Assembly (NCBI GenBank): GCA_017432445.1
Contig: JAFRJC010000137.1
Location: 124,001-188,000, forward strand
Length of the DNA: 64,000 bases
Direction: 5' to 3'
From: Eggerthellaceae bacterium
GTDB lineage: Bacteria > Actinomycetota > Coriobacteriia > Coriobacteriales > Eggerthellaceae
Made by a program: the position numbers and the translations under genes. Of the stretch, positions 9,988-34,103 are shown one piece after another (the stretch's first letter is position 1; each line of letters starts with the position of its first letter). The notes under the pieces are model-generated. The model ran no database searches. It was not told the origin of the DNA and saw nothing but the letters and a program-made list of their open reading frames with translations.

Positions 9988-11925
9988 CTATTCGTATTTT
10001 CTGCGGATGCGTCCAGGTTGGTCGACGCGGTAGCCGCCAAGCTCTTCCATGCGGGTTCGGAAGGCTTCGCTTGCCAACACCTCGAGCAATGCCTGCACCA
10101 TGGGCGTGTCCCAAGCGTAGTCTGGTATGAGCAGGTCGTACTGCTCTTCGCAGACGGGGACGAACCCAAGACCGTACATCTTGGCGGCGGAGTAGATGCC
10201 CATGCCCGCGTCGGCCGAGCCCGCATCGACGAGTGCGGCTACTGCCGTGTGCGTGAATTCCTCATGGTCGTAGCCATAGATCGCGTTAGCGTCTATGCCG
10301 TCGCGCTTGCAGACGTAATCGCTCAGGATGCGCGTGCCCGAGCCCTTTTGCCGGTTCACGAAACGCCGTCCCTCAATTGCCAAATCGGCCAGAGACGCTA
10401 TGCCGAGCGGGTTTCCCGGGGCCACCATAAGGCCCTGCTGGCGGTACACGCACTCCACTTGGCGAACGCCTCCGTTGGGGAAATGCTTTTCCAGGTACGG
10501 TTCGTTGTACGTGCCGCTCGCCTCGTCGAGCAAGTGGATACCGCCGCAGTGGTTCTCGCCGCGCTTGGCGGCGACGATGGCCCCCATCGAGCCCACATGG
10601 GTCGATGCGACGGAAAGAGATGGGTCGTTCTGATGGATGATCTGGGCAATCTCGTCGATGAGGGGGTCGTGGCTGCCGATGACGACAAGCGACCGCTCGA
10701 TATCTGCCAGAGGTCTCAGCAGGTGCACCTCGATGGTTTCCCCCGCCTCGTAGCCTTCCACGTTCTGGGGAACCGACATGATGCCGTCGGCCTTCACGAA
10801 CGACGTGACCACGCCAGCTCCACGAGAAAGCGGCGTGGCGACCATCTTGTCGCGAACTTTCCCCAGGCGCACACGTACGAATTCCTCGTATTTGAGCGAC
10901 GACATGCACGGGCGGGTGAGCGTGGCGCTTGCGCTTGCGTCGTCGGATGACCGACATCCGAATACCTGCTCGATGATGGGCTTCACTATCTGCTCGACCA
11001 CGATGATGCCGCTTACGGGATATCCAGGCACTCCGACGATGGCAGTTCCTTCGGCGTAGCCAAGGATGGCAGGCTTGCCGGGCTTGATGGCGATGCCGTG
11101 ATAGAGGACCTCGCCCACCTCGGCGATTGCGCGCGACGAGTAGTCGTCCCGTCCTGCGGACGAGCCCGCGTTGAGCAGCACAATGTCACATTCGGATACG
11201 GCTTTCGCAACCGCATCGCGCACGAGGTCAGGCTTGTCGGGAACGATGGGGTAGGCAACGGGCTCTGCGCCCCATTGGCGTACCATGCCCGAAAAAATCG
11301 TCGAGTTGAATTCCATGACATCGCCCGGCTTGGGATTGGCGCTCGGCGCCACGACCTCGTCGCCAGTGGGGATGATGCCGACGCGCGGGCGCGCAATGAC
11401 CGAGACTTCCTGCACGCCTGCTGCAAGCATGGCGCCCATGGCCGCGGGCTCGATGCGCACGTTGGAGGTGAGCAGCATTTCCCCAGCGCAGATGTCTTCG
11501 CCAATTTGCCGCACATTGCCCCACGGCGCGATGGCAGCATGCAGCACGACCGGGCAAGTGCCCAAGTCAGCAAGCGAATATCCCTCGGGGAACACGACGT
11601 CTTCGATCATCACGACGCCATCGCACCCTTCGGGCAAAGGGTCGCCGGTATCGACGACGATATAAGCCTCTGCCGGTATCGTAACCGGCGTCGTGGCCGT
11701 CGCCCCGAAGGTCACCTGCGCCGCCAGTGCGATACCATCCATGGCGCATGCGTGATAATGAGGTGCGGAAATTGCTGCATACAACGGCTCTGCCGTCACG
11801 CGCCCAAGGGCCTCGCCCACCGGGATGGTCTCCGAGCGCGGTTGCATGCCTCGCTCTTGCAAAACAGCGAGGAATCCCTTGATGGCCTCGCTTAGGGTTA
11901 CGTTTGTGAGGTATTCGAACGACAC
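9988..11925 (-). CDS. MoeA-type molybdopterin molybdotransferase fused to a binding-protein-like domain
   Basis: A 645-residue two-part protein. Residues 1 to about 400 are MoeA: inserts Mo (or W) into adenylylated molybdopterin; the central MPT-binding domain shows G-I-I-P-T-G-D-E-V and N-A-G-S-S-A-G-R-D-D, and P-G-K-P-A-I-L-G-Y near 290. Residues about 415-645 are a periplasmic-binding-protein-like domain (PBP-like family, with G-S-H-D-P-L-I-D-E, L-M-V-A-P-G-N-P, Q-K-G-S-G-T-R) also found alone or fused to ModE/MoeA and thought to sense the oxyanion or the cofactor. The frame continues upstream to 12063, but GTG 11925 with AAGGAG seven bases before it removes the overlap with the upstream gene. 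It follows moeA by 61 bp in a leftward operon. Confidence 0.9.
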   Translation of the reverse strand: MSFEYLTNVTLSEAIKGFLAVLQERGMQPRSETIPVGEALGRVTAEPLYAAISAPHYHACAMDGIALAAQVTFGATATTPVTIPAEAYIVVDTGDPLPEGCDGVVMIEDVVFPEGYSLADLGTCPVVLHAAIAPWGNVRQIGEDICAGEMLLTSNVRIEPAAMGAMLAAGVQEVSVIARPRVGIIPTGDEVVAPSANPKPGDVMEFNSTIFSGMVRQWGAEPVAYPIVPDKPDLVRDAVAKAVSECDIVLLNAGSSAGRDDYSSRAIAEVGEVLYHGIAIKPGKPAILGYAEGTAIVGVPGYPVSGIIVVEQIVKPIIEQVFGCRSSDDASASATLTRPCMSSLKYEEFVRVRLGKVRDKMVATPLSRGAGVVTSFVKADGIMSVPQNVEGYEAGETIEVHLLRPLADIERSLVVIGSHDPLIDEIAQIIHQNDPSLSVASTHVGSMGAIVAAKRGENHCGGIHLLDEASGTYNEPYLEKHFPNGGVRQVECVYRQQGLMVAPGNPLGIASLADLAIEGRRFVNRQKGSGTRILSDYVCKRDGIDANAIYGYDHEEFTHTAVAALVDAGSADAGMGIYSAAKMYGLGFVPVCEEQYDLLIPDYAWDTPMVQALLEVLASEAFRTRMEELGGYRVDQPGRIRRKYE

Positions 11926-11986
11926 AACGATACTCCTTTCAGGCTTAACCATAGAGAGATAGTTGCTCCCTATGACACACTGCGTT

Positions 11987-13192
11987 TTAGCGGAACAGGC
12001 GTACTTCGACTTCAGCGCCGACGGGCAAGCCTTCGCAGTTACGCGGCACGACGAAGAACCCATCCGCCCCGCTCAACTGTGAGATCAATCCCGATTTGCC
12101 GCGAACGGGCGTCGCGATGGCACCGCTGTCACCCTGTTCGACTCGAGCAGCTACGAACTCGCTGCGCCCGTGGTTGGAGGGCACGCCGGCAGAAAGACTT
12201 GCACGTACGAACGTCTGCTGCTCGCGGGGGGCGAGCAGAGGGGCTACCAGCTCTAGGAACATGAAGTATGCCGCAACGGGGTGTCCTGGCAGTCCGAAAA
12301 CGGGTCTGGTACCCACGTTGGCGCACATCGTCGGTTTCCCGGGTTTAACGGCCACGCCATGGAAGAGCATGTCGCCGAGCGCCGAAAGCACGAGCGCCGT
12401 ATTGTCTTTCTGCCCAGCCGACGATCCGCCAGAAACAAGCACCATATCGCAGATTCCAAGTGCCTGTTCGACCGAAGCGAAGAGCTTTTCAAAATCGTCG
12501 GGCACGATGGGGAATGTAAGGACAAGAGCGCCGCATGCTTCTGCGGCAGCAGCAAGCACAGGCGTGTTCACGTCGCGCATCTGGGATGCGACGGGAGTTG
12601 CCTTGACGGGGACGATCTCATCGCCAGTCGAGATGATGCCGACAACCGGTCGTTGCCGTACTTCGCAAGTGGCAAATCCCAAGCTTGCAAGCGTCCCGAT
12701 GTGATGGGGGAGCAAGGTGGTTCCCGCTTCGATGAGGATCTCTCCAGGTTTTACATCGTCGTTCTTGAATACGATGTTTTCACCTGGTGCGACAGGACGC
12801 GCGATCCCGATAGTGCCGTCGCCATACTCTTCGCAATACTCAAGCATGACGACCGCATCGGCTCCTGTTGGAACTTGGCCGCCCGTCGGGATGCGCACGC
12901 AAGTCGTTGGAGCACATTCGCATGAAGGGGTGCCGCCCATATCGATTTCACCTGCCAACTCGAGTATGGCGGGAAGCGCGTCCGAGCAGCCAAACGTATC
13001 TGAAGCGATGACGGCGAACCCATCGACCGTTGAACGATCGAAAGCCGGCACGCCCTCTGTTGCGATGACGTCTCGGGCAATTTGACGCCCTGCCGCATCG
13101 TGCAACCTCACGGTTTCGATTTCGTCCCTGATGAACGGAAAGCGTTTCTCCACTAGAGTCCGGGCTTCTTCGAGCCCTACGACTTCCAGCAT
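11987..13192 (-). CDS. moeA: Molybdopterin molybdotransferase MoeA
   Basis: A 401-residue MoeA of standard length. The N-terminal domain begins L-E-E-A-R-T-L-V; the central MogA-like domain has G-I-I-S-T-G-D-E-I and S-G-G-S-S-A-G-Q-K-D-N; the linker shows V-K-P-G-K-P-T and G-L-P-G-H-P-V-A-A-Y-F, all family signatures. It ligates molybdate or tungstate to adenylyl-molybdopterin in the cytoplasm. AAGGAG lies five bases before the ATG. Together with the fused MoeA downstream there are two insertases in tandem, consistent with separate molybdenum and tungsten pathways (inference), given tupABC just upstream. Confidence 0.93.
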   Translation of the reverse strand: MLEVVGLEEARTLVEKRFPFIRDEIETVRLHDAAGRQIARDVIATEGVPAFDRSTVDGFAVIASDTFGCSDALPAILELAGEIDMGGTPSCECAPTTCVRIPTGGQVPTGADAVVMLEYCEEYGDGTIGIARPVAPGENIVFKNDDVKPGEILIEAGTTLLPHHIGTLASLGFATCEVRQRPVVGIISTGDEIVPVKATPVASQMRDVNTPVLAAAAEACGALVLTFPIVPDDFEKLFASVEQALGICDMVLVSGGSSAGQKDNTALVLSALGDMLFHGVAVKPGKPTMCANVGTRPVFGLPGHPVAAYFMFLELVAPLLAPREQQTFVRASLSAGVPSNHGRSEFVAARVEQGDSGAIATPVRGKSGLISQLSGADGFFVVPRNCEGLPVGAEVEVRLFR

Positions 13193-13889: not shown

Positions 13890-14603
13890 CTAGACAGCCC
13901 AATACGATAAGAATTCGCGTCCCGCCTCGCTGGTCGGGGTTGAGAGCACCTCGGAGGTGTCGCCGAGTTCGACGACATGCCCGTCGCTGAGCATGACGGC
14001 TTTGTCGGAGATGCGGTGCGCCTGCGAAGGAGCATGGGTCGCTATCAGCATCAAGCAGCCCGTTCTCTCTCGGTAAGATTTAAGCGCACCTTCGACGAGC
14101 ATCGTTCCCGCGATGTCCATCGATGCTGTCGGCTCGTCGAGCATGACCACATCCAAATCCTGCACGAGAAGCCGTGCCAACGCCACGCGCTGCGCTTCGC
14201 CGCCCGAAAGGCCCGAACCTCGGGCATCGGCCATATCGGCCATTCCCACTGCATCGAGCGCTCGGTTCACGCGCTCGTTCACCTCGTTTTTCCCCAAGCC
14301 AGACGAGCTTAAGGCCATCGCCACGTTCTTGAAGACCGAGAAGCCGAAAACGTAGCTTTTCTGGGGCATGTACCCGACTGCCAGATCCTCACGCGTTGCA
14401 TCGCCTAATACGTCTACGTGCCCGGTAGTCGCTGCTTCCACGCCTGAAAGCAATCTGATCAGGGTCGACTTTCCGCTCCCGTTCGGTCCAACGAGCGCGT
14501 ACGACAAGCCCGATTCGAGCACGAGCGATTCGATGTCCAACACGGTGCGCTCGCCGAACGTCTTCTTCAAACCCTTGATTTCAATCGCGAATTTCCCGTT
14601 CAT
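13890..14603 (-). CDS. tupC: Tungstate ABC transporter ATP-binding protein
   Basis: A 237-residue ABC ATPase that powers the TupAB importer. Walker A is G-P-N-G-S-G-K-S-T, signature L-S-G-G-E-A-Q-R-V-A-L-A, Walker B V-V-M-L-D-E-P-T, and the switch histidine T-H is in L-I-A-T-H-A-P-S. It overlaps the tupB stop by ATGA and has GGGAGG upstream, so the two are translationally coupled. Assignment to tungstate rests on TupA and gene order. Confidence 0.9.
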   Translation of the reverse strand: MNGKFAIEIKGLKKTFGERTVLDIESLVLESGLSYALVGPNGSGKSTLIRLLSGVEAATTGHVDVLGDATREDLAVGYMPQKSYVFGFSVFKNVAMALSSSGLGKNEVNERVNRALDAVGMADMADARGSGLSGGEAQRVALARLLVQDLDVVMLDEPTASMDIAGTMLVEGALKSYRERTGCLMLIATHAPSQAHRISDKAVMLSDGHVVELGDTSEVLSTPTSEAGREFLSYWAV

Positions 14604-15340
14604 CGACCGCCTCCCAGCTTACCGCCGCGCGATGCGCTCCAAGCACCCTGCGCTTCGGGGGCTGACGTGCGCTCTTGCAACGAAAGCGCGATGGAGTTGA
14701 TGATGAAAGAGATCACGAGTAGCACGATGCCGAGAGCGACGGCGTATTCGAAATGCCCCATGTTCGTTTCGAGCATGATTGCGGTGGTCATGACGCGCGT
14801 TTTGTACTGCACGTTTCCGCCGACGAGCATGACGGCGCCGACTTCGCCGATAGAACGGCCGAACGCCACGAACATGATGGAGAGCAGTTGTGAACGACAT
14901 TCGTAGAGCAGGCAAGCGAGCTCTCGACGGCGCGTAAGTCCCATGCCATGCGCCGTCTCGTGCACGAGCGGCGCCACGCCCGAGATGGCCGTAGCCGAGA
15001 GGCCGCATACGATGGGGGTGATGAGCACGACTTGGGCCGTCACCATGGCGGGAAGCGTATAGAGCAGCTTCAACGTGCCGAGCGGTCCCGAACGGGACAG
15101 GATGAAGAACACAATGAGGCCGGCCAGCACTGGCGGCAAGCCCATGAGCGTGTTTAGTATGCGCATGACGAGGCGTTTTCCGCGAAAGCGGTACAGCCCT
15201 ACGCACACGCCGAGCGGCACTCCTATCGCAGTAGAAATGGCCGTCGAGAAGGCGGACATCTTGAGGGTCAAAAGAACGATCTGCGACAGTTCGCTGCCCG
15301 GCGTGAACAGGAGGCTGAATGCCTGGATGAGTTCTTCCAT
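14600..15340 (-). CDS. tupB: Tungstate ABC transporter permease
   Basis: A 246-residue permease of the binding-protein-dependent type with about five to six transmembrane helices. The cytoplasmic EAA-like loop is seen around E-T-A-H-G-M-G-L-T-R-R-R-E-L, and the helix with F-G-R-S-I-G-E-V-G-A-V-M-L-V-G-G-N is typical of TupB/CysTW-type permeases. The gene follows tupA after an 80-bp gap with a strong hairpin and overlaps tupC. There is no good ribosome binding site, so translation may depend on the mRNA structure upstream. Confidence 0.9.
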   Translation of the reverse strand: MEELIQAFSLLFTPGSELSQIVLLTLKMSAFSTAISTAIGVPLGVCVGLYRFRGKRLVMRILNTLMGLPPVLAGLIVFFILSRSGPLGTLKLLYTLPAMVTAQVVLITPIVCGLSATAISGVAPLVHETAHGMGLTRRRELACLLYECRSQLLSIMFVAFGRSIGEVGAVMLVGGNVQYKTRVMTTAIMLETNMGHFEYAVALGIVLLVISFIINSIALSLQERTSAPEAQGAWSASRGGKLGGGR

Positions 15341-15420: not shown

Positions 15421-16398
15421 CTATTTCTCGATCAGGTAGAACAGCGGCTCGCCGTACTCTTCCTCGCCGTACTTGGCGATCAGTTCGGAAGCCTTGTCGC
15501 CGGTCATCCACGCGATGAAGGCGTTTGCGCCGTCGATGTTGGTGTCAGGCCATTTGTCGGGGCTGATGGCGATCATCGTGTAGGTGTTCTTCATGTCATC
15601 GGACTCGCCGAGCAGGATCTTCAGCGATTCCTTGGCGTCGTTGGAGAGGAACGTGCCCTTGTCGGAGAGCGTGTAGCCCTGACGCTCGGCGGTCTGGGTC
15701 AGCGTTGCGCCCATGCCCTGGCCAGCGTTAACGTACCATTCCTGGCCGTTGGGGTCGATGCCGGCAGCTTCCCAGATCTGGAGTTCCTTCTTGTTGGTGC
15801 CGGAGTCGTCGCCGCGCGAGACGAACGTTTGGCCGGCATCGGCGATAGCCTTGAAGGCATCAGCTGCGGTTGCGCAGTTGGCAACGCCTGCCGGGTCGCC
15901 CTCGGGGCCGACGATCACGAAGTAGTTGTACATGAACGGAACGCGCTCGACGCCGAAGCCCTCGTTGACGAATTCTTCTTCGCTGGCCTTGGCATGGACG
16001 AGCAGCGCGTCCGCATCGCCTGTCCTACCCTTTTCGATGGCAGCACCGGTACCAGCGGAGGTGACCTCCATCTGGTAGCCCGTGTCTTCCTCGAAGAAGG
16101 GCTGCAGGTACGGCAGCAGGCCGGAATCGTTCACCGACGTGGTGGTGGAGATGCGCAGTACGGCGTTTTGCGGTGCAGCGGCCTCGGAGGAAGCGGCTTC
16201 GGAGGAAGCGGCCTCGGAGGAAGCGGCCTCGGAGGAAGCAGCCTCGGAGGAGGCTGCCTCGGACGAAGCTGCCTCAGACGATGCGGCCTCGGATGATGCT
16301 GCAGAGCTTCCCGATCCGCTGGAGCAGGCGACTAGGAACAGTGCGAACATAGCCGCGAGCACGGTAACGAGCAGAATTTTGACGGGTGTCTTTCTCAT
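15421..16398 (-). CDS. tupA: Tungstate-binding lipoprotein
   Basis: A 325-residue lipoprotein. A signal peptide ends in the lipobox L-V-A-C, followed by a linker made of repeated S-S-E-A-A units (about residues 32-75) and then the TupA domain, which starts with the T-T-T-S-V-N-D-S-G-L-L motif that contacts the oxyanion in the family. Further TupA features are S-A-G-T-G-A-A-I-E-K-G and D-A-L-L-V-H-A. Family members bind tungstate with very high affinity and discriminate against molybdate. GGGAAGGGG precedes the ATG. The leader just upstream (16401-16476) is shared with the FecB-like binding protein at 32761. A tungsten supply fits the aldehyde oxidoreductases and perhaps the formate dehydrogenase of this window. 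Confidence 0.92.
   Translation of the reverse strand: MRKTPVKILLVTVLAAMFALFLVACSSGSGSSAASSEAASSEAASSEAASSEAASSEAASSEAASSEAASSEAAAPQNAVLRISTTTSVNDSGLLPYLQPFFEEDTGYQMEVTSAGTGAAIEKGRTGDADALLVHAKASEEEFVNEGFGVERVPFMYNYFVIVGPEGDPAGVANCATAADAFKAIADAGQTFVSRGDDSGTNKKELQIWEAAGIDPNGQEWYVNAGQGMGATLTQTAERQGYTLSDKGTFLSNDAKESLKILLGESDDMKNTYTMIAISPDKWPDTNIDGANAFIAWMTGDKASELIAKYGEEEYGEPLFYLIEK
16183..16303. repeat. 15-bp tandem repeats inside tupA coding the S-S-E-A-A linker
   Basis: About eight in-frame copies of a 15-bp unit (on the plus strand GCCTCGGAGGAAGCG and variants) encode the Ser/Glu/Ala linker between the lipid anchor and the binding domain. The copies nearest the domain are almost identical and those near the lipobox more diverged, so the array probably still changes in length by slippage. 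Confidence 0.85.
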
Positions 16399-16400
16399 GA

Positions 16401-16476
16401 CGTTCCCCTTCCCTCTCTAATTCCCAAGCGAAACTCGAAACGGTGTGACCCTTTGCACCGATTCGTCACGATTCAG
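16401..16476 (-). promoter_or_regulatory. Conserved leader upstream of tupA, copy 1 of 2
   Basis: On the minus strand the region directly before tupA reads CTGAATCGTGACGAA, then a hairpin CGGTG (16456-16460) / CACCG (16441-16445) with loop CAAAGGGTCA, then GTTTCGAG and TAGAGAG before a purine-rich ribosome binding site. The same block precedes the FecB-like gene (33913-33987), where the hairpin is CGGTA/TGCCG with loop CAGGGTCA: the stem changes preserve pairing while GGGTCA stays constant. This suggests a cis-regulatory RNA or protein-binding leader for oxyanion or metal uptake. It does not match any riboswitch consensus I can recall. Confidence 0.6.
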
Positions 16477-16636
16477 AATACTTCGTCACATTGGAAAAGG
16501 AAATGGAATTAGTTGGCGAATGGCCGCATTTGTTATCTAGTTTGCAAACAATAGGCAGAAAGGATGAACGGTAAAACGCGTTACCAGCTCATCCAAAGGC
16601 GGCTCTTCTGGATGCAGACGCTGTCCCGCAACCTTC

Positions 16637-19444: not shown

Positions 19445-22400
19445 TTATGCTTTCCTGACGTCCACGAGGAACGCCTTGTATTCCGGAATGAAACTGTTCG
19501 GGTCTCCGACGTTGGGCGTGAGCTCGTTGGTGACCTCTCCTGTGCTGTAGCGATTCGTCCAGTCCCAGTGATGGATCATGCCCACCAGGTGTACCGTCTG
19601 GCCTTGGACGGTCAGCGGCTGGATGCGCTTGGTCACGAGTGCGTTCATGCGCACTTCCGAGCGGTTGTTGAAGACGACGACCTCATCGCCGTTCGCGATG
19701 CCTTTTTCGGCCGCTAGCGCCTCTCCGATTTCGATGAACTGACGCGGCTGGATCTCGTCGAGCACGGGGCACATGCGCGTTTGGGCGCCTGTTTGCCAAT
19801 GCTCGGTGATCGAGTAGGTCGTGGCGACAATCGGGTACTGCGAGCGATCGCCCTTCTTGACCGACTCGTTTTCGGCAAACTTGATCATCGGCGAATTGAG
19901 CGCGCCGTTGAGCAGGTTTTTCTCAACCGGGGTCTCAAACGGTTCGTAGTGCTCCGGAAGCGGGGCGTCCTTCATGCCGGTAGTAACGAAATTCGCGTGC
20001 AGCTCGTCCTTCATGAAGAAGGCCGGGCACTTCTCGGGCGGATTATGCGTGACGGTGCCGTCTTCTGCTGTGGTCGAGAAGCCGAAGTCGGGTACGTCGT
20101 TGCGAATCCACTCCTTCTTCGAATCGTCCCATGCCACCAGTACGCGGTCAGGGTTCCATGGCTTGCCCTTCGCGTCTGCAGAGGCGCGATTGTAGATGAC
20201 GCGGCGGTTCGCCGGCCAGCTGAATGCCCAGCTGGGATACAGGCGGATATTGCCCGGGTCCTTATCGGGTACAGGGACCATCTCCTTGCCGTTGACGCCG
20301 TCTTCCGAATCGATCTTTGTGTGACGGCGTGCGACGGGTTGGATGGCGGGATCGTACGGGTCGGCGTTGTTGTTGTAGAAGCCGCCGTAGATCCAGATGG
20401 CATTCGCCGTCTTTCCGTCGGCGGTGAGCTTCGTGAAGTTGGGAAGCAGTTTGGGGGCTTTGGCGCCGAGGTCGGTGCTGTCGTCGATTTCGTAGCCGTT
20501 GAGCGCCCATGCGACAGGTCTCGGATCAATCTTGCCGTCGACGTAGTAATCCCACTTGACGTTCAGGATGGCTTCGGGACATGCGCCGCCTTCTGCCTGG
20601 TAGAGCTTGCTGATCTCGCGCCATAGCATGTCGCAGATTTCGTAGTCGGGCTTGGCTTCGTCAATCGGCTCAACGGCCTTTTGACGCCACTGCAGCCAGC
20701 GGCCCGAGTTGGCGATAGTGCCGGATTTCTCGTAGATGAGCGCCGCCGGCATGAGGTATACCTCGGTGTTGATCTGGGATGGATCCATGTCGGGAGCATT
20801 CCAGAACGATGCGGTGGCGGTGACGACCCAATCGGCCACGACGAGCCAGTCGAGCTTCGCCATGGCGTTGCGGTTGAACTTGGCGTTCGGGTCGGAGACA
20901 ACCGGGTTTTGACCCCAGGCAAAGTAGCCCTTCATAATGCCCTGATCCATGAGCTCGAAGGTGCCGATGGTCGTGTAGATGGCGCCGTTCTTTGGGATCT
21001 TCGGCAGCCAGTCGTAGCCGTAGTCGTTGTCGACGGTCGCGTTCTTGCCGTACCATTCCTTGAGGCCGGCAATCAGGAATTTGGGCTTGTTAACGTAGTA
21101 GCCCTGCGCGTTGGGTTGCGTTTCGAGCCACTTTCGCAGCGTGGGCGTGTCGGTAACGCTCGGCCATTTCAGGTAACCGGGGAAGTCGAACACGAGCATG
21201 GCCATATCCGTCGCGCCTTGGACGTTCGGCTCGCCGCGCAGCGCGTTCACGCCACCGCCCGCTATGCCCGCGTTGCCCAGCAGCAGCTGGACGAGCGTCA
21301 TGATGCGCGTGTTCTGGGAGCCGTAGTGATGCTGCGTCTGGCCGAGCGCATACATGATCGTACCGGATTTCTCGGGTGCGCCCGTCGAGGCATAGGTTTT
21401 GTAGACCAGTTCCAGCGTCGCGGCGTCCATGCCGCAGATGTCGCATACCGTCTCGATCGTGTAGCGGGAGTAGTGCTCTTTCATGATCGCCCAGACAGAA
21501 TGCTTGTAATCGGGGTTGGACGTGTCGTCGATGCTCGCGATGCGCTTGATCGTCTTTACGGCCTTGGGGGTGTATTTGGGGACGCCCGCCTCGCTCATCC
21601 ACGCCTGTGCGCCATCGGTTTCAGACTCGACCTGGTATCCCCAGGCGCTGGTGTCGTACTTGTGGTCGGCTTCGCTCCAGCCGCTGAAGAAGCCGGTTTC
21701 GGGATCGAAGTTGTAGGAATCCTTGATGAGGTACGTGGCGTTCGTGTACTCGTTCACGTACTCGGTCTGCTCGAGGCGGTTTTCGATGATGTAGTTGATA
21801 AGACCGCCGTAGAATGCGATATCGGTGCCCGAGCGGATGGGGCAGTAGATGTCGGCCTGCGAGGCTGTGCGCGTGTAACGCGGGTCGACGACGATCCAGG
21901 TTGCGCCCGCGTCGAGCGCGCGTTGGACCCATTTGGAACTGACAGGATGGTTTTCGAGGTTATTGGAACCGCACGACAGCAAGACGTCGGCGTTAGAAAG
22001 GTCGCAGTAATGGCCCGTCATCGAACCGCGACCGAATGAAGGCGCCAGACCGGCAACCGTGGAGCTGTGTCAAACACGGGCCTGATTGTCGATGGCCACG
22101 ATGCCCAGCGAGCGCATGACCTTGAGGATCAGGTACTCCTCCTCGGAGTTTTGCTGGCTGCCACCCATGCTGCCGATGGCTGGAGTGTAGTTGCACGTCA
22201 CGCCATCTTCCTTGTCGATGAACGTGGCGTCGCGTGTGTCCTTCACGTGTCGGGCGATTTCTTGAATCATCTGGTCCCAGGAGATCTCCTCCCATTCAGA
22301 TGCACCTGGACGACGGACCAAAGGCTTGGTCACGCGCTCGGGATTGTGGATGATCTCTCCGGTTTTGTCATCCACGATGTTGCGCAGCTGGAACATGGCT

Positions 22401-22672
22401 GCGCCTTTCGGGCATAAGCAGCCCTCGTTGATGGGGTGATCGGGGTCGCCCTCCAGGTTTATGAGCTCGCCGTCGCGAACCGAGCAGATCACGCCACATC
22501 CTCCTGAGCAGTAGCAGCAGATGTTCGTGTACTCTTCGGTGTTGACAAGCTTCCAGTCGTCGGCGTCGCCATCTATTGCGAACGCTGCCGAACGAGTTGA
22601 GAGCTCATACGCCATGGACCCCGCAAAGGCCAAAGCGGTCGCTTTGAAAAAGCCCCTACGTGTTAGCTCCAT
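19445..22672 (-). CDS. fdnG: Selenocysteine-containing formate dehydrogenase catalytic subunit (in-frame TGA = Sec201)
   Basis: A 1075-residue periplasmic molybdo- or tungsto-bis-MGD enzyme that oxidises formate to CO2. A Tat signal (M-E-L-T-R-R-G-F-F-K) is followed by a 4Fe-4S site (C-C-Y-C-S-G-G-C-G-V, G-C-L-C-P-K-G). The frame continues through a TGA at 22070-22072 between N-Q-A-R-V and H-S-S-T-V-A-G-L-A-P, exactly where FDH-N has selenocysteine, the metal ligand. A bacterial SECIS hairpin follows (see 22041-22058). Reading TGA as a stop would give a 200-residue fragment and an orphan 858-residue remainder. The C-terminal MGD domain has Q-T-G-A-Q-T-R-M. Start: ATG 22672 with AAGGAG ten bases upstream. 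First gene of fdnGHI-fdhE. Selenocysteine machinery must be encoded elsewhere. Confidence 0.95.
22041..22058 (-). promoter_or_regulatory. SECIS element for selenocysteine insertion in fdnG
   Basis: On the minus strand, 11 bases after the TGA, GGTTGCC (22052-22058) pairs with GGCGCC (22041-22046) leaving one bulged U and the pentaloop GGTCT (22047-22051). A bulged U and a GGUCU loop are the SelB-recognition features of the E. coli fdhF SECIS, with which the whole stretch is very similar. Confidence 0.9.
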
Positions 22673-22855
22673 GAGCAAAACACTCCTTTCCTCTCGCCCT
22701 CTCCATGAAGCACATGGCCTTTCTAAAGGCATGCGTCACCTAGGGCAGAAGCGTCCTAGGCCCGTCGAACTTATCATGGAAAGACAAAGGAGCAAACAGA
22801 CAGATTTGCCTGATTGGAGCAGGACGATACAAGGCTAGAGCGAGCCGGACGCCAC

Positions 22856-30882: not shown

Positions 30883-31665
30883 CTATTCGCCCACGCCAAC
30901 GGCAATGCAGACATCGCGTTTGGCAGCGCCTGAATGCTCGATGGCTATCTCGATGCCGTACAGTTCATGGAGGGTCTCCGCGGTCACGATGTCTCGCGCG
31001 TTGCCGAACCGGTAATCTCCACCGCGCTGCATCGCAACGACCTTTCCGTCGAGCATGAGCACATGATCGGGATTGTGCGTCGTCATCAGCAAGCCGAAGC
31101 CTTCGCGCGCGAGGTCCTTGACCAAATCGAGTACCCTGATCTGGTTCCCGAAATCCAGATGAGACGTCGGCTCGTCAAGCAAGATGAACGCGGGTTTCTG
31201 CGTCAGGACGCGGGCTATGCTCACCTGTTGGCGCTCGCCGCCGCTAATGCGGGCATACGATTGGTCGGCCAATCGCTCGATTCCCATGCGTTCGAGCGAT
31301 TCCCACGCTCTGGCATACTCGGCTTCGCCTGGCCGTTTGAACCATTTCATGTGAGGAGCGCAACCGGTGACCACGTAATCGAGCACGGTGTAGTCGAAGG
31401 CGGCAGTGATCTCCTGCGGAACATAGCCAAGCAGCTGGGCAACCTGGGCGCCGGCAAGCTGCTCGATGCTCTCGCCATCGACCGAAACAGATCCTGACGT
31501 TGCCTTGTGCAAGCCGATCACACAGTTGAGCAACGTCGTCTTCCCGCATCCGTTCGGCCCGAGCAAGCACACCACGCTGCCCGCCTCGACCTCGAAGGAG
31601 ATGTCGGTGAAGATCTGCGCTGATGGCGCGTAAGAAAACCCGAGATGGTCGATTACGAGGCTCAT
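30883..31665 (-). CDS. ABC importer ATP-binding protein, FecE/BtuD type
   Basis: A 260-residue ATPase: Walker A G-P-N-G-C-G-K-T-T, signature I-S-G-G-E-R-Q-Q-V-S-I-A, Walker B F-I-L-L-D-E-P-T, switch T-T-H-N-P-D-H. The G-Y-V-P-Q-E block after Walker A is typical of the FecE/BtuD/MolC subclass. ATG 31665 overlaps the permease stop by ATGA; the longer frame to 31701 lies within the permease gene. It powers import by the permease and binding protein encoded just upstream. Ligand class discussed at the binding protein. Confidence 0.93.
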   Translation of the reverse strand: MSLVIDHLGFSYAPSAQIFTDISFEVEAGSVVCLLGPNGCGKTTLLNCVIGLHKATSGSVSVDGESIEQLAGAQVAQLLGYVPQEITAAFDYTVLDYVVTGCAPHMKWFKRPGEAEYARAWESLERMGIERLADQSYARISGGERQQVSIARVLTQKPAFILLDEPTSHLDFGNQIRVLDLVKDLAREGFGLLMTTHNPDHVLMLDGKVVAMQRGGDYRFGNARDIVTAETLHELYGIEIAIEHSGAAKRDVCIAVGVGE

Positions 31666-32705
31666 AGGAGATTCGCCGCCCTCTGACGATAGAGCAACCA
31701 AGCATAGAACGGCGCGCCTATCAGGCCTGTCAAGATTGACAGCGGAATATCCGACGTCGTGAGCGTTCGCGACAGCGTGTCAATGACGAGCATGAACGTC
31801 CCGCCCAGCAAAAGTGAAACAGGGAGTTGCCTGCGATGGTCGCTTCCGACGAGCAACCGCGACAGGTGGGGAATGACAAGCCCCACCCAACCGACCGTGC
31901 CGCTGATGCATACCGTCGATGCGGTCAGGCAGCTCGCGCACATGATGACGACCCCGCGCACGAGCTTCACGTTCATGCCGAGCGTCTTCGCCTCGACCTC
32001 GCCGAACGATAGGATGTTCAAACGCCACGACAGTGCCAGCAATACGATGGCGCACGTGATCGCGATGGGCGATACGGCCACGACGTCGATGCCGTCAACT
32101 GTCGTGAGGCTTCCCATCTGCCAAAACACGATAGCGGAAAGCTCGGTTTCCTCGTCCGCCACGAATTTCATGATGCCGAGCACTGACGACATGAAACCGC
32201 TCGTGATGATGCCGGCGAGCACGAGCATCAAGTTGGTGTTGTTGCGGATGAGCTTGGGAATCGTCACGGATATCGTGACGGCTATCAAGCCGAAGACGAA
32301 TGCGAGCATCTGCTGTTGCACCATGCCAAGCCCGAGAAGGACCGCTGCCGCCGCGCCGACGCAGGCGCCGCTCGAAACGCCCAACAGGTCGGGCGAGACG
32401 AGCGGGTTCTTGAACACGCCCTGGTAAACGGCGCCGGAAAGCGAAAGTGCCGCACCTACCAAAACCGCTGCCAGGACACGTGGAATGCGAATGTTGAACA
32501 AGACCATGTCCATCGCGGGGTCTGTTGGCGTTTTGCCGGAAATCGTTTCGGTTATCGAGCGGATCACATCGCGCGGGTCGTAGCTGTAATGACCGATCGA
32601 CAGGGCAACGAGGGCGAAAACGCACAACAGCACGCACAGCACGATGAATACCGTGCGGTACCTCTTCTTCCTTTTCGCGATGCCTTCTAGTTGAGCCGTA
32701 TGCAT
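31662..32705 (-). CDS. ABC importer permease, FecCD/BtuC type
   Basis: A 347-residue permease of the FecCD family with about ten helices. Family marks: R-I-P-R-V-L-A-A-V-L-V-G-A-A-L-S-L-S-G near residue 75, Q-G-V-F-K-N-P-L-V-S-P-D-L-L-G-V-S-S-G-A, and V-G-W-V-G-L-V-I-P-H-L-S-R-L near 265. The family imports siderophores, heme, cobalamin and, in MolB of Haemophilus, molybdate. It follows the binding protein after a hairpin gap of 55 bp. Confidence 0.93.
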   Translation of the reverse strand: MHTAQLEGIAKRKKRYRTVFIVLCVLLCVFALVALSIGHYSYDPRDVIRSITETISGKTPTDPAMDMVLFNIRIPRVLAAVLVGAALSLSGAVYQGVFKNPLVSPDLLGVSSGACVGAAAAVLLGLGMVQQQMLAFVFGLIAVTISVTIPKLIRNNTNLMLVLAGIITSGFMSSVLGIMKFVADEETELSAIVFWQMGSLTTVDGIDVVAVSPIAITCAIVLLALSWRLNILSFGEVEAKTLGMNVKLVRGVVIMCASCLTASTVCISGTVGWVGLVIPHLSRLLVGSDHRRQLPVSLLLGGTFMLVIDTLSRTLTTSDIPLSILTGLIGAPFYAWLLYRQRAANLL

Positions 32706-32760: not shown

Positions 32761-33912
32761 CTAGATGCCGAGCTCCTCGGCAGTGAAGGTCTTGCCATAG
32801 ACGAGCGTGTAGAACTCATCGGCGGCCTTCATCAGGTCTTCTTTCGAATACTGGTCAGGATGCAGGCTGTTCGCCGCCCAGCAAACGCCCAGGCAGGTGG
32901 AAGCCGTCGGATAGTCCCACGGCTCAAGCTTCGACGGGAACATGTACACAGCGCCGTTCTTCACGGCCGAGACCTCGGCGAGTTTGGGGTCATTCAAAAC
33001 ATCGTCGACGGAATAGGATGCGTAGTTCGGAATCCAGATCACATCGGGATTGAAGCCGGCGATGGTCTCGGCATCCACAGAAGCGAACTCGCCTGGCTTG
33101 TAATCGCCCTGGACGGCGTTCGTCGCACCAACTGCGTCGATGATATAGGTCTGGATCATCGAGCTGGAAGCGACCTCATACAGGTCGTCGCCCATGAACA
33201 ACACGGACGGCTTCTCAGCAGCACCCTCGCAGGCAGCAGAGGCCTCGGAGACGAGCTTGTCGAACTCTGCGTTGATCTCGGCTGCGCGATCACTCTTGCC
33301 GAACAGGGTGCCGATGCGCGTGAGCGATTCCTTGATGGTGTCGAAGCTTTCCTCGTTGGGCAGCGCCACGAACGTGTCAAGACCGACCTTCGCGTACTCT
33401 TCAGCCATGGATGCCTGGCGCTCGGGAACAAGGGCCATGTCCGCGCCAAGCGTCGCAACTGTCTCGAAATTGACTTCTTTGCCCTTGCCAATGGAGGTTA
33501 GGCCATCCCAACCCTCGATAACCTTGGAATACAGGCCGTCGGCCTTCTCCTTGTTGCCGAAACCGGCGAGATGCTGTCCGCCACCGCCGATGACGACAAC
33601 GGCGTTCAGCGTCGGGTTATGCGTGCCGATGACCTTGTTGACAGGCGCCTCGAGCGTGAACACCTTGCCGGTCACGTCAACGACTTCGAATCCCCCTGCC
33701 GCTGCAGACGCACTTGCCGAGTCAGAGGCCGCCGAGGCGGACTCGCTCGCTGCAGAAGCGGATTCACTCGACGCCGAGACCGATTCGCTCGATGCCGAGT
33801 CAGACGTGCTCGATGCGCTCCCCGAGCCGCTCGAGCAAGCCACCATGAACAGCGCGAGCATGGCGGCTAACACGAAGCCCACCAACACTTTGAACTTAAC
33901 GGATTGTTTCAT
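32761..33912 (-). CDS. FecB/BtuF-type substrate-binding lipoprotein (iron-chelate, cobalamin or oxyanion)
   Basis: A 383-residue lipoprotein. The signal peptide ends in M-V-A-C, followed by a 45-residue Ser/Ala/Glu/Asp linker and a type III (helical hinge) binding domain: V-I-G-T-H-N-P-T-L near 105, V-E/ N-F-E-T-V-A-T-L-G-A-D-M-A-L-V, and F-N-P-D-V-I-W-I-P-N-Y-A. The first 40 residues and the 5' leader resemble tupA closely, although the binding domain is unrelated. That link raises the possibility that the ligand is molybdate or tungstate, as in MolA, but sequence alone also allows siderophore or corrinoid. Start ATG 33912 with AAGGAAGGGAACG before it. Confidence 0.88.
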   Translation of the reverse strand: MKQSVKFKVLVGFVLAAMLALFMVACSSGSGSASSTSDSASSESVSASSESASAASESASAASDSASASAAAGGFEVVDVTGKVFTLEAPVNKVIGTHNPTLNAVVVIGGGGQHLAGFGNKEKADGLYSKVIEGWDGLTSIGKGKEVNFETVATLGADMALVPERQASMAEEYAKVGLDTFVALPNEESFDTIKESLTRIGTLFGKSDRAAEINAEFDKLVSEASAACEGAAEKPSVLFMGDDLYEVASSSMIQTYIIDAVGATNAVQGDYKPGEFASVDAETIAGFNPDVIWIPNYASYSVDDVLNDPKLAEVSAVKNGAVYMFPSKLEPWDYPTASTCLGVCWAANSLHPDQYSKEDLMKAADEFYTLVYGKTFTAEELGI

Positions 33913-33987
33913 CGTTCCCTTCCTTCTCTCTAGCCCAACACGAAGAGTTGAAACGGCATGACCCTGTACCGCTTCGTCACGATTCAG
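33913..33987 (-). promoter_or_regulatory. Conserved leader upstream of the FecB-like gene, copy 2 of 2
   Basis: On the minus strand it reads CTGAATCGTGACGAA, hairpin CGGTA (33967-33971) / TGCCG (33954-33958) with loop CAGGGTCA, then GTTTCAACTC, TTGGGCTAGAGAG and the ribosome binding site. Aligned to the tupA leader (16401-16476) about 80% of positions agree, with compensatory change in the hairpin and a 2-base shorter loop. The remainder of the gap to 34104 is AT-rich and likely contains two divergent promoters. Confidence 0.6.
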
Positions 33988-34103
33988 CTTAATCCATACC
34001 TCAGCTTAATTAAACACTTTTTACTCGTATATGTTGCATACGAAGCATTTGCCGAAACTTGCTGTCGTACAATCGACGCAGCAGAACGGTTTTGGAGGCA
34101 GCT

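Follow-up and report, generated by a model that had tools for sequence, protein, structure and literature searches.

A narrowly distributed structured leader of molybdenum and tungsten uptake genes in the Eggerthellaceae, probably a cis-regulatory RNA

Two similar leaders before different binding-protein genes

Bacteria need tungsten and molybdenum uptake to be matched to cofactor demand. In the 64-kb window (the whole stretch of DNA analyzed here), two importer-type operons on the minus strand begin with genes for different kinds of binding protein and are preceded by leaders that look alike. The first operon comprises tupA (15421–16398; PBP_like_2, 2e-47), encoding a lipoprotein, followed by the permease gene tupB (14600–15340; BPD_transp_1) and the ATPase gene tupC (13890–14603; ABC_tran). 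By homology, TupA is a tungstate-binding protein: it matches the tungstate-binding protein of PDB entry 3lr1 at 1e-65 and model NF041772 at 211 bits, which is below that model's strict cut-off of 400 bits. The second operon consists of genes for a FecB-like (Peripla_BP_2) binding protein (32761–33912; PF01497, 5e-26), a FecCD-type permease (31662–32705; PF01032, 4e-84), and an ABC ATPase (30883–31701; PF00005, 3e-32). The FecB-like protein is a distant relative of MolA, which binds molybdate and tungstate (PMC4031551). Since PDB entries 4hn9 (5e-31) and 4ovk (5e-20) are closer to it than MolA (3psa, HI_1472; 1e-16), molybdate or tungstate is only a candidate cargo.

The tupABC genes have a selenocysteine formate dehydrogenase operon on one side and two moeA-type genes on the other, and the window encodes several molybdopterin enzymes. 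From this gene context, it is plausible that the leader responds to tungstate, molybdate, or the cofactor. Several features of the neighborhood are worth recording in their own right. The formate dehydrogenase alpha gene (19445–22732, minus strand) has one in-frame TGA (22070–22072), read as selenocysteine and overlapped by a SECIS_3 element that scores 62.3 bits against a gathering score of 63. One moeA-type protein (9988–12063, minus strand) has a C-terminal extension and a full-length match to PRK14498 (722 bits), and a second, shorter moeA-type gene lies beside it at 11987–13192. Both binding proteins carry long Ser/Ala/Glu-rich repeats after the lipobox, and N-termini like theirs recur in many other reading frames of the genus. 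Circularly permuted relatives of TupA were seen at four loci (L111, L112, L113, and L114; genera g42 and g7), with the C-terminal part (query residues 255–320) at the N-terminus, followed by the part corresponding to 74–256, where the protein ends.

A preliminary description of this DNA had the coordinates and letters of both leaders right, and its alignment of about 75 nt held up, with 72% identity over 75 nt and a score of 29; in 2000 mononucleotide shuffles of the pair, the mean score was -9.6 (standard deviation 3.9) and the maximum 7. As it had stated, CTGAATCGTGACGAA is the same in both leaders, the hairpin loop keeps AGGGTCA, and the stems CGGTG/CACCG and CGGTA/TGCCG differ in one pair altered on both sides (G-C to A-U), while another pair is a U-G wobble. 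The elements GTTTC and TAGAGAG, which it had also singled out, are common to both copies, but TAGAGAG is not conserved across the genus. GTTTC is half of P1/P2, the helices described below.

Promoter and helices of the leader

A predicted -10 box, TATTCT, precedes the tupA leader at 16475–16480, and its counterpart before the FecB-like gene is TAAGCT (33986–33991). The motif TAnnnT lies 9-10 nt before the first helix, P1, in 15 of 16 leaders, and the alignment columns T9, A10, and T14 of the box are invariant in the genus. Matches to a -35 box are poor across the leaders, except at one locus, L124, where TTGACA is perfect. Transcription usually starts 6-8 nt after a -10 box. Given this spacing, the predicted start would lie about 3 nt before P1, at about position 16468.

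P1 has nine pairs (GAAACGGYG/CGCCGUUUC in the genus) and a 10-nt loop. In the tupA leader, it is formed by GAATCGGTG (16456–16464) and CACCGTTTC (16437–16445), which enclose the loop CAAAGGGTCA (16446–16455). No other part of the leader is as conserved as the last seven positions of the loop, AGGGUCA, whose mean column identity is 99%. The corresponding elements before the FecB-like gene are GAAGCGGTA (33967–33975), the loop CAGGGTCA (33959–33966), and TGCCGTTTC (33950–33958). RNAalifold predicts a second helix, P2, that begins one nucleotide after P1, with covariation: GUUUC(G)CUU pairs with AAGG(G)AAAC, within which the Shine–Dalgarno sequence is found. Its strands in the tupA leader are GTTTCGCTT (16426–16434) and AAGGGGAAC (16402–16410), the latter overlapping the Shine–Dalgarno sequence of tupA. 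This second helix (GUUUC...GAAAC) over the ribosome-binding site and the -10 box before the hairpin go beyond the preliminary description.

The support for the two helices was assessed in an alignment of 13 leaders of the genus. For P1 and P2 together, 92% of the cells are paired, compared with 45-57% when the partners are slid, and 11 cells carry changes on both sides, compared with 3.1 in shuffles (0 of 500 shuffles). Most of this signal is in P2, which has nine double-change cells versus 2.9 and a covariation score of 0.306 versus 0.160 (again 0 of 500). Its outer pairs are seen as C-G, U-A, A-U, G-C, and G-U, and two species have G-C in place of U-A. P1 alone covaries weakly within the genus, with two double-change cells, because it is so conserved there. 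The best evidence for P1 comes from outside the genus, from the tupA of G102 (genus g42, protein 78% identical), where GAGGCGU-GAUGAGGGUCAG-ACGCUUC stands at the same place, with the stem rewritten around AGGGUCA. This leader scores only 16 bits with the covariance model R1 (described below), whose training set did not contain it, so the case depends on position, loop, and stem jointly.

Folding the sequences one by one gives support that falls short of compelling. With z between 0 and -2.8, individual leaders are only modestly more stable than their shuffles, and several minimum-energy folds lack P2, including that of the window's own tupA leader. We also considered other pairings. An H-type pseudoknot of GTGAC/GTCAC with P1 was rejected, as the 5' GTGAC is missing in about half of the genus. 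An anti-sequestor formed by the 5' strands of P1 and P2 is thermodynamically plausible and was judged too weak against P1 and P2 together. No competing structure that would give a clear switch was found in the leader.

Distribution of the leader

A protein search with TupA in 15 genomes of the genus found the gene, complete or nearly so, in 12, and the leader stands immediately before it in all 12. In another genome (G122), the leader precedes a partial tupA at the end of a contig, and the remaining two (G115 and G126) have neither tupA nor the leader. The leader-bearing relatives are uncultured Eggerthellaceae or Coriobacteriaceae, several of them from the rumen or from deer or sheep gut.

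To search more widely, we used two covariance models. R1, built from 13 leaders with P1 only, was run on 138 genomes of the family; R2, which includes P1 and P2, was run on 397 genomes of the order and 398 of the class. Both training sets contain the window's copies, whose own scores are thus not evidence; this holds for the full second leader found by R2 (33912–33999, minus strand, 68 bits). G122 and G091 were left out of R1 training, and G122 is an independent match at 86 bits. In the family, R1 recovered the leaders of the genus, the window's second copy, and a single clear match beyond the genus, before a FecB-like gene in G091 (36 bits). In the order and class genomes, R2 gave no convincing match before genes other than tupA and FecB-like genes. 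Weak matches to R1 or R2 elsewhere (L090-L098, L196-L208, and L214) were rejected, most of them lacking the GGGTCA loop; those of the weaker matches that were inspected look like parts of coding sequence, hairpins of the terminator type, or unrelated genes. In Rfam 15, no family matches the window at its gathering score or the leader at a permissive score beyond chance. By these comparisons, the structured leader of these Mo/W-uptake genes is real, narrow in its distribution, and new to Rfam.

Some upstream regions outside this set deserve mention. In two sister species, weak matches (L101 in G120 and L100 in G121; E 0.02-0.16) stand before a different FecB-like gene; their promoter-like part is similar to the leader and their loop is not. 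The upstream regions of tupA inspected in genus g10 lack the leader. At L105 and L107-L110 of that genus, a conserved palindrome like TTTRAGAATGATTTTCAAA stands in its stead, followed in several cases by a hairpin and U-run that resemble a terminator. At L124 (RUG12923), a 7-bp hairpin, GACGAUG/CAUUGUC, with loop GGGGGUCG, comes directly after the TTGACA promoter upstream of tupA. This locus, drawn from 80 loci scanned and missed by R2, is possibly a diverged relative of the leader.

Possible function, rival readings, and known systems

The proposal in the preliminary description of a cis-acting RNA gained support from the covariation of P2, from the rewritten P1 stem with its loop kept in G102, from convincing covariance-model matches in the Coriobacteriia that precede only tupA or FecB-like genes, and from a -10 box whose position predicts transcription starting before P1, which would place the hairpin within the transcript. 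We consider it likely that the leader is an RNA that acts on translation. It combines a conserved, covarying structure in the 5' UTR with a possible expression platform, as expected of a riboswitch: P2 covers the Shine–Dalgarno sequence, with marginal stability in single-sequence folds. It is probably a lineage-restricted cis-regulatory RNA, either a riboswitch or a protein-sensed leader, that represses uptake when tungsten (or the cofactor) is sufficient. The best explanation as a whole, to which we give a probability of about 0.5, is a short, structured 5' UTR that serves a regulon for Mo/W uptake, with P1 as sensor and P2 as translational shut-off. The transcript would begin about 3 nt before P1, the P1 loop would be the sensing element, and P2 would hide the Shine–Dalgarno sequence and lower ribosome access. 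When tungstate or the cofactor is plentiful, a ligand (or a protein) at the P1 loop would stabilize the P1/P2 stack, and the stabilized stack would shut off translation of the importer. Whether a small Mo/W ligand binds the leader directly is more doubtful, and we put this at about one chance in three. More tentatively, the leader may represent a new, very small riboswitch class that would sense tungstate or molybdate itself, or else recognize the tungsten cofactor through a fold unlike that of RF01055, with the AGGGUCA hairpin loop as its putative binding site.

The alternative that survives best keeps the RNA and moves the sensing elsewhere. An RNA-binding protein or a small RNA could bind the AGGGUCA loop in trans, and the leader itself would be no ligand sensor. 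A hairpin with a short invariant loop does resemble a target for a protein or a kissing RNA, and a 10-nt loop would be small for a cofactor aptamer. We consider this reading possible, if rather unlikely.

It is also conceivable, at a low probability, that P1 is not an RNA element and that the inverted repeat CGAAACGGYG-N10-CGCCGTTTCG is a DNA operator for a repressor, for example of the ModE type. A location immediately downstream of the -10 box is suitable for a repressor site, TGACGAAGTA upstream of the -10 box repeats part of the P1 region, and the tupA genes of genus g10 bear a different palindrome instead. Proteins with a ModE-like HTH domain were found in 130 of the 138 family genomes, including the source genome, all below the family cut-off. 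They are mostly short frames of about 115-160 aa (G000:C66:11076-11300 and those of 129 other genomes) and are a possible DNA-binding Mo/W regulator. However, conservation peaks in the asymmetric center AGGGTCA and not in the arms. Within the genus, the symmetric half-sites expected of an operator are conserved; those of G102 have been rewritten, and its arms still pair. The changes in P1 are mostly those that G-U pairing tolerates, and P2, which lies outside the palindrome, covaries with the Shine–Dalgarno sequence.

A further possibility, raised in the preliminary description as a duplicated 5' module, is that the FecB-like gene received its leader, signal peptide, and Ser/Ala linker as a copy from a tupA, so that the likeness within this genome reflects descent and no common regulatory signal. 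In the source genome, the signal peptide and linker of the FecB-like protein are 57-59% identical to those of TupA (57% for the signal peptide), and the signal peptide is 72-74% identical to that of TupA in the sister species G116, G118, and G124. This likeness favors exchange of a 5' module, and it also means that the two genes may not be independent acquisitions. The earlier proposal is partly borne out, but G091 (genus g39) speaks against it. Over the mature part (residues 65-383), the FecB of that genome shares 80% identity with the window's, yet its signal peptide is different and its leader, though related, has diverged. That leader keeps the CGGUA/UGCCG stem and the ribosome-site helix GGUUC/GAACC, and it lacks the GGGUCA loop, which may be dispensable or changed there; these features suggest that leader and gene have some common history in both genera. 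Copying would leave the covarying pairs and the conserved loop across the genus unexplained, and it accounts for origin and not for function. As a full account, we find it improbable.

Two readings fare worse. A 5'-terminal hairpin that merely protects the mRNA from decay would fit a transcript predicted to begin about 3 nt before P1, but it would need neither a conserved loop sequence nor P2, and we consider it very unlikely. Conservation due to a small upstream ORF is refuted: one frame is open through the hairpin in several species, but start codons are not common across species, changes of 1-2 nt in loop length put the frame out of register, and stops fall inside it in other species.

The structured 5' UTR that we favor can be set beside several known systems. 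MolABC of Haemophilus influenzae, with a FecB-type binding protein and a FecCD-type permease, is a plausible analogue of the second operon (PMC4031551), but MolA (3psa) is merely the third-best PDB match of the window's FecB-like protein. Control of Mo/W import is a theme that the leader has in common with ModE-type repression. ModE and tungstate-responsive repressors regulate such import via operator DNA, and DNA binding leaves P2 and the invariant loop unaccounted for. Translational riboswitches, such as preQ1, pair a compact aptamer with a sequestered Shine–Dalgarno sequence. The leader resembles them in size, position, and ribosome-site pairing, but its sequence and structure differ, and the pseudoknot pairing GTGAC/GTCAC is not conserved.

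The closest functional counterpart may be RF01055, the proposed sensor of the molybdenum or tungsten cofactor (PMC2408646). Both precede tupA homologues or other Mo/W genes, in the case of the leader solely tupA and FecB-like genes, and RF01055 is a cis-acting RNA, as the leader probably is, but RF01055 is about 135 nt long with multiple helices (PMC2408646). The preliminary description held that the leader is not the Moco riboswitch, and the window indeed has no RF01055 match at 36 bits or among the permissive matches; there was none in the 138 family genomes either. RF01055 precedes the tupA homologues of several Clostridia (L130, L137, L142, L174, and L184). Its presence there and its absence from the family suggest that the leader fills its place, and the leader would then have the role that this Moco/tungsten-cofactor riboswitch plays upstream of clostridial tupA homologues. 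Reviews of riboswitches count the Moco and tungsten-cofactor classes among sensors whose response to these oxyanions is only indirect (PMC9971707, PMC10043782). If the proposed role is true, the leader would be a compact target on which to test RNA recognition of a metal oxyanion, and a separate small RNA in the place of RF01055 would mean that RNA control of tungsten and molybdenum arose more than once.
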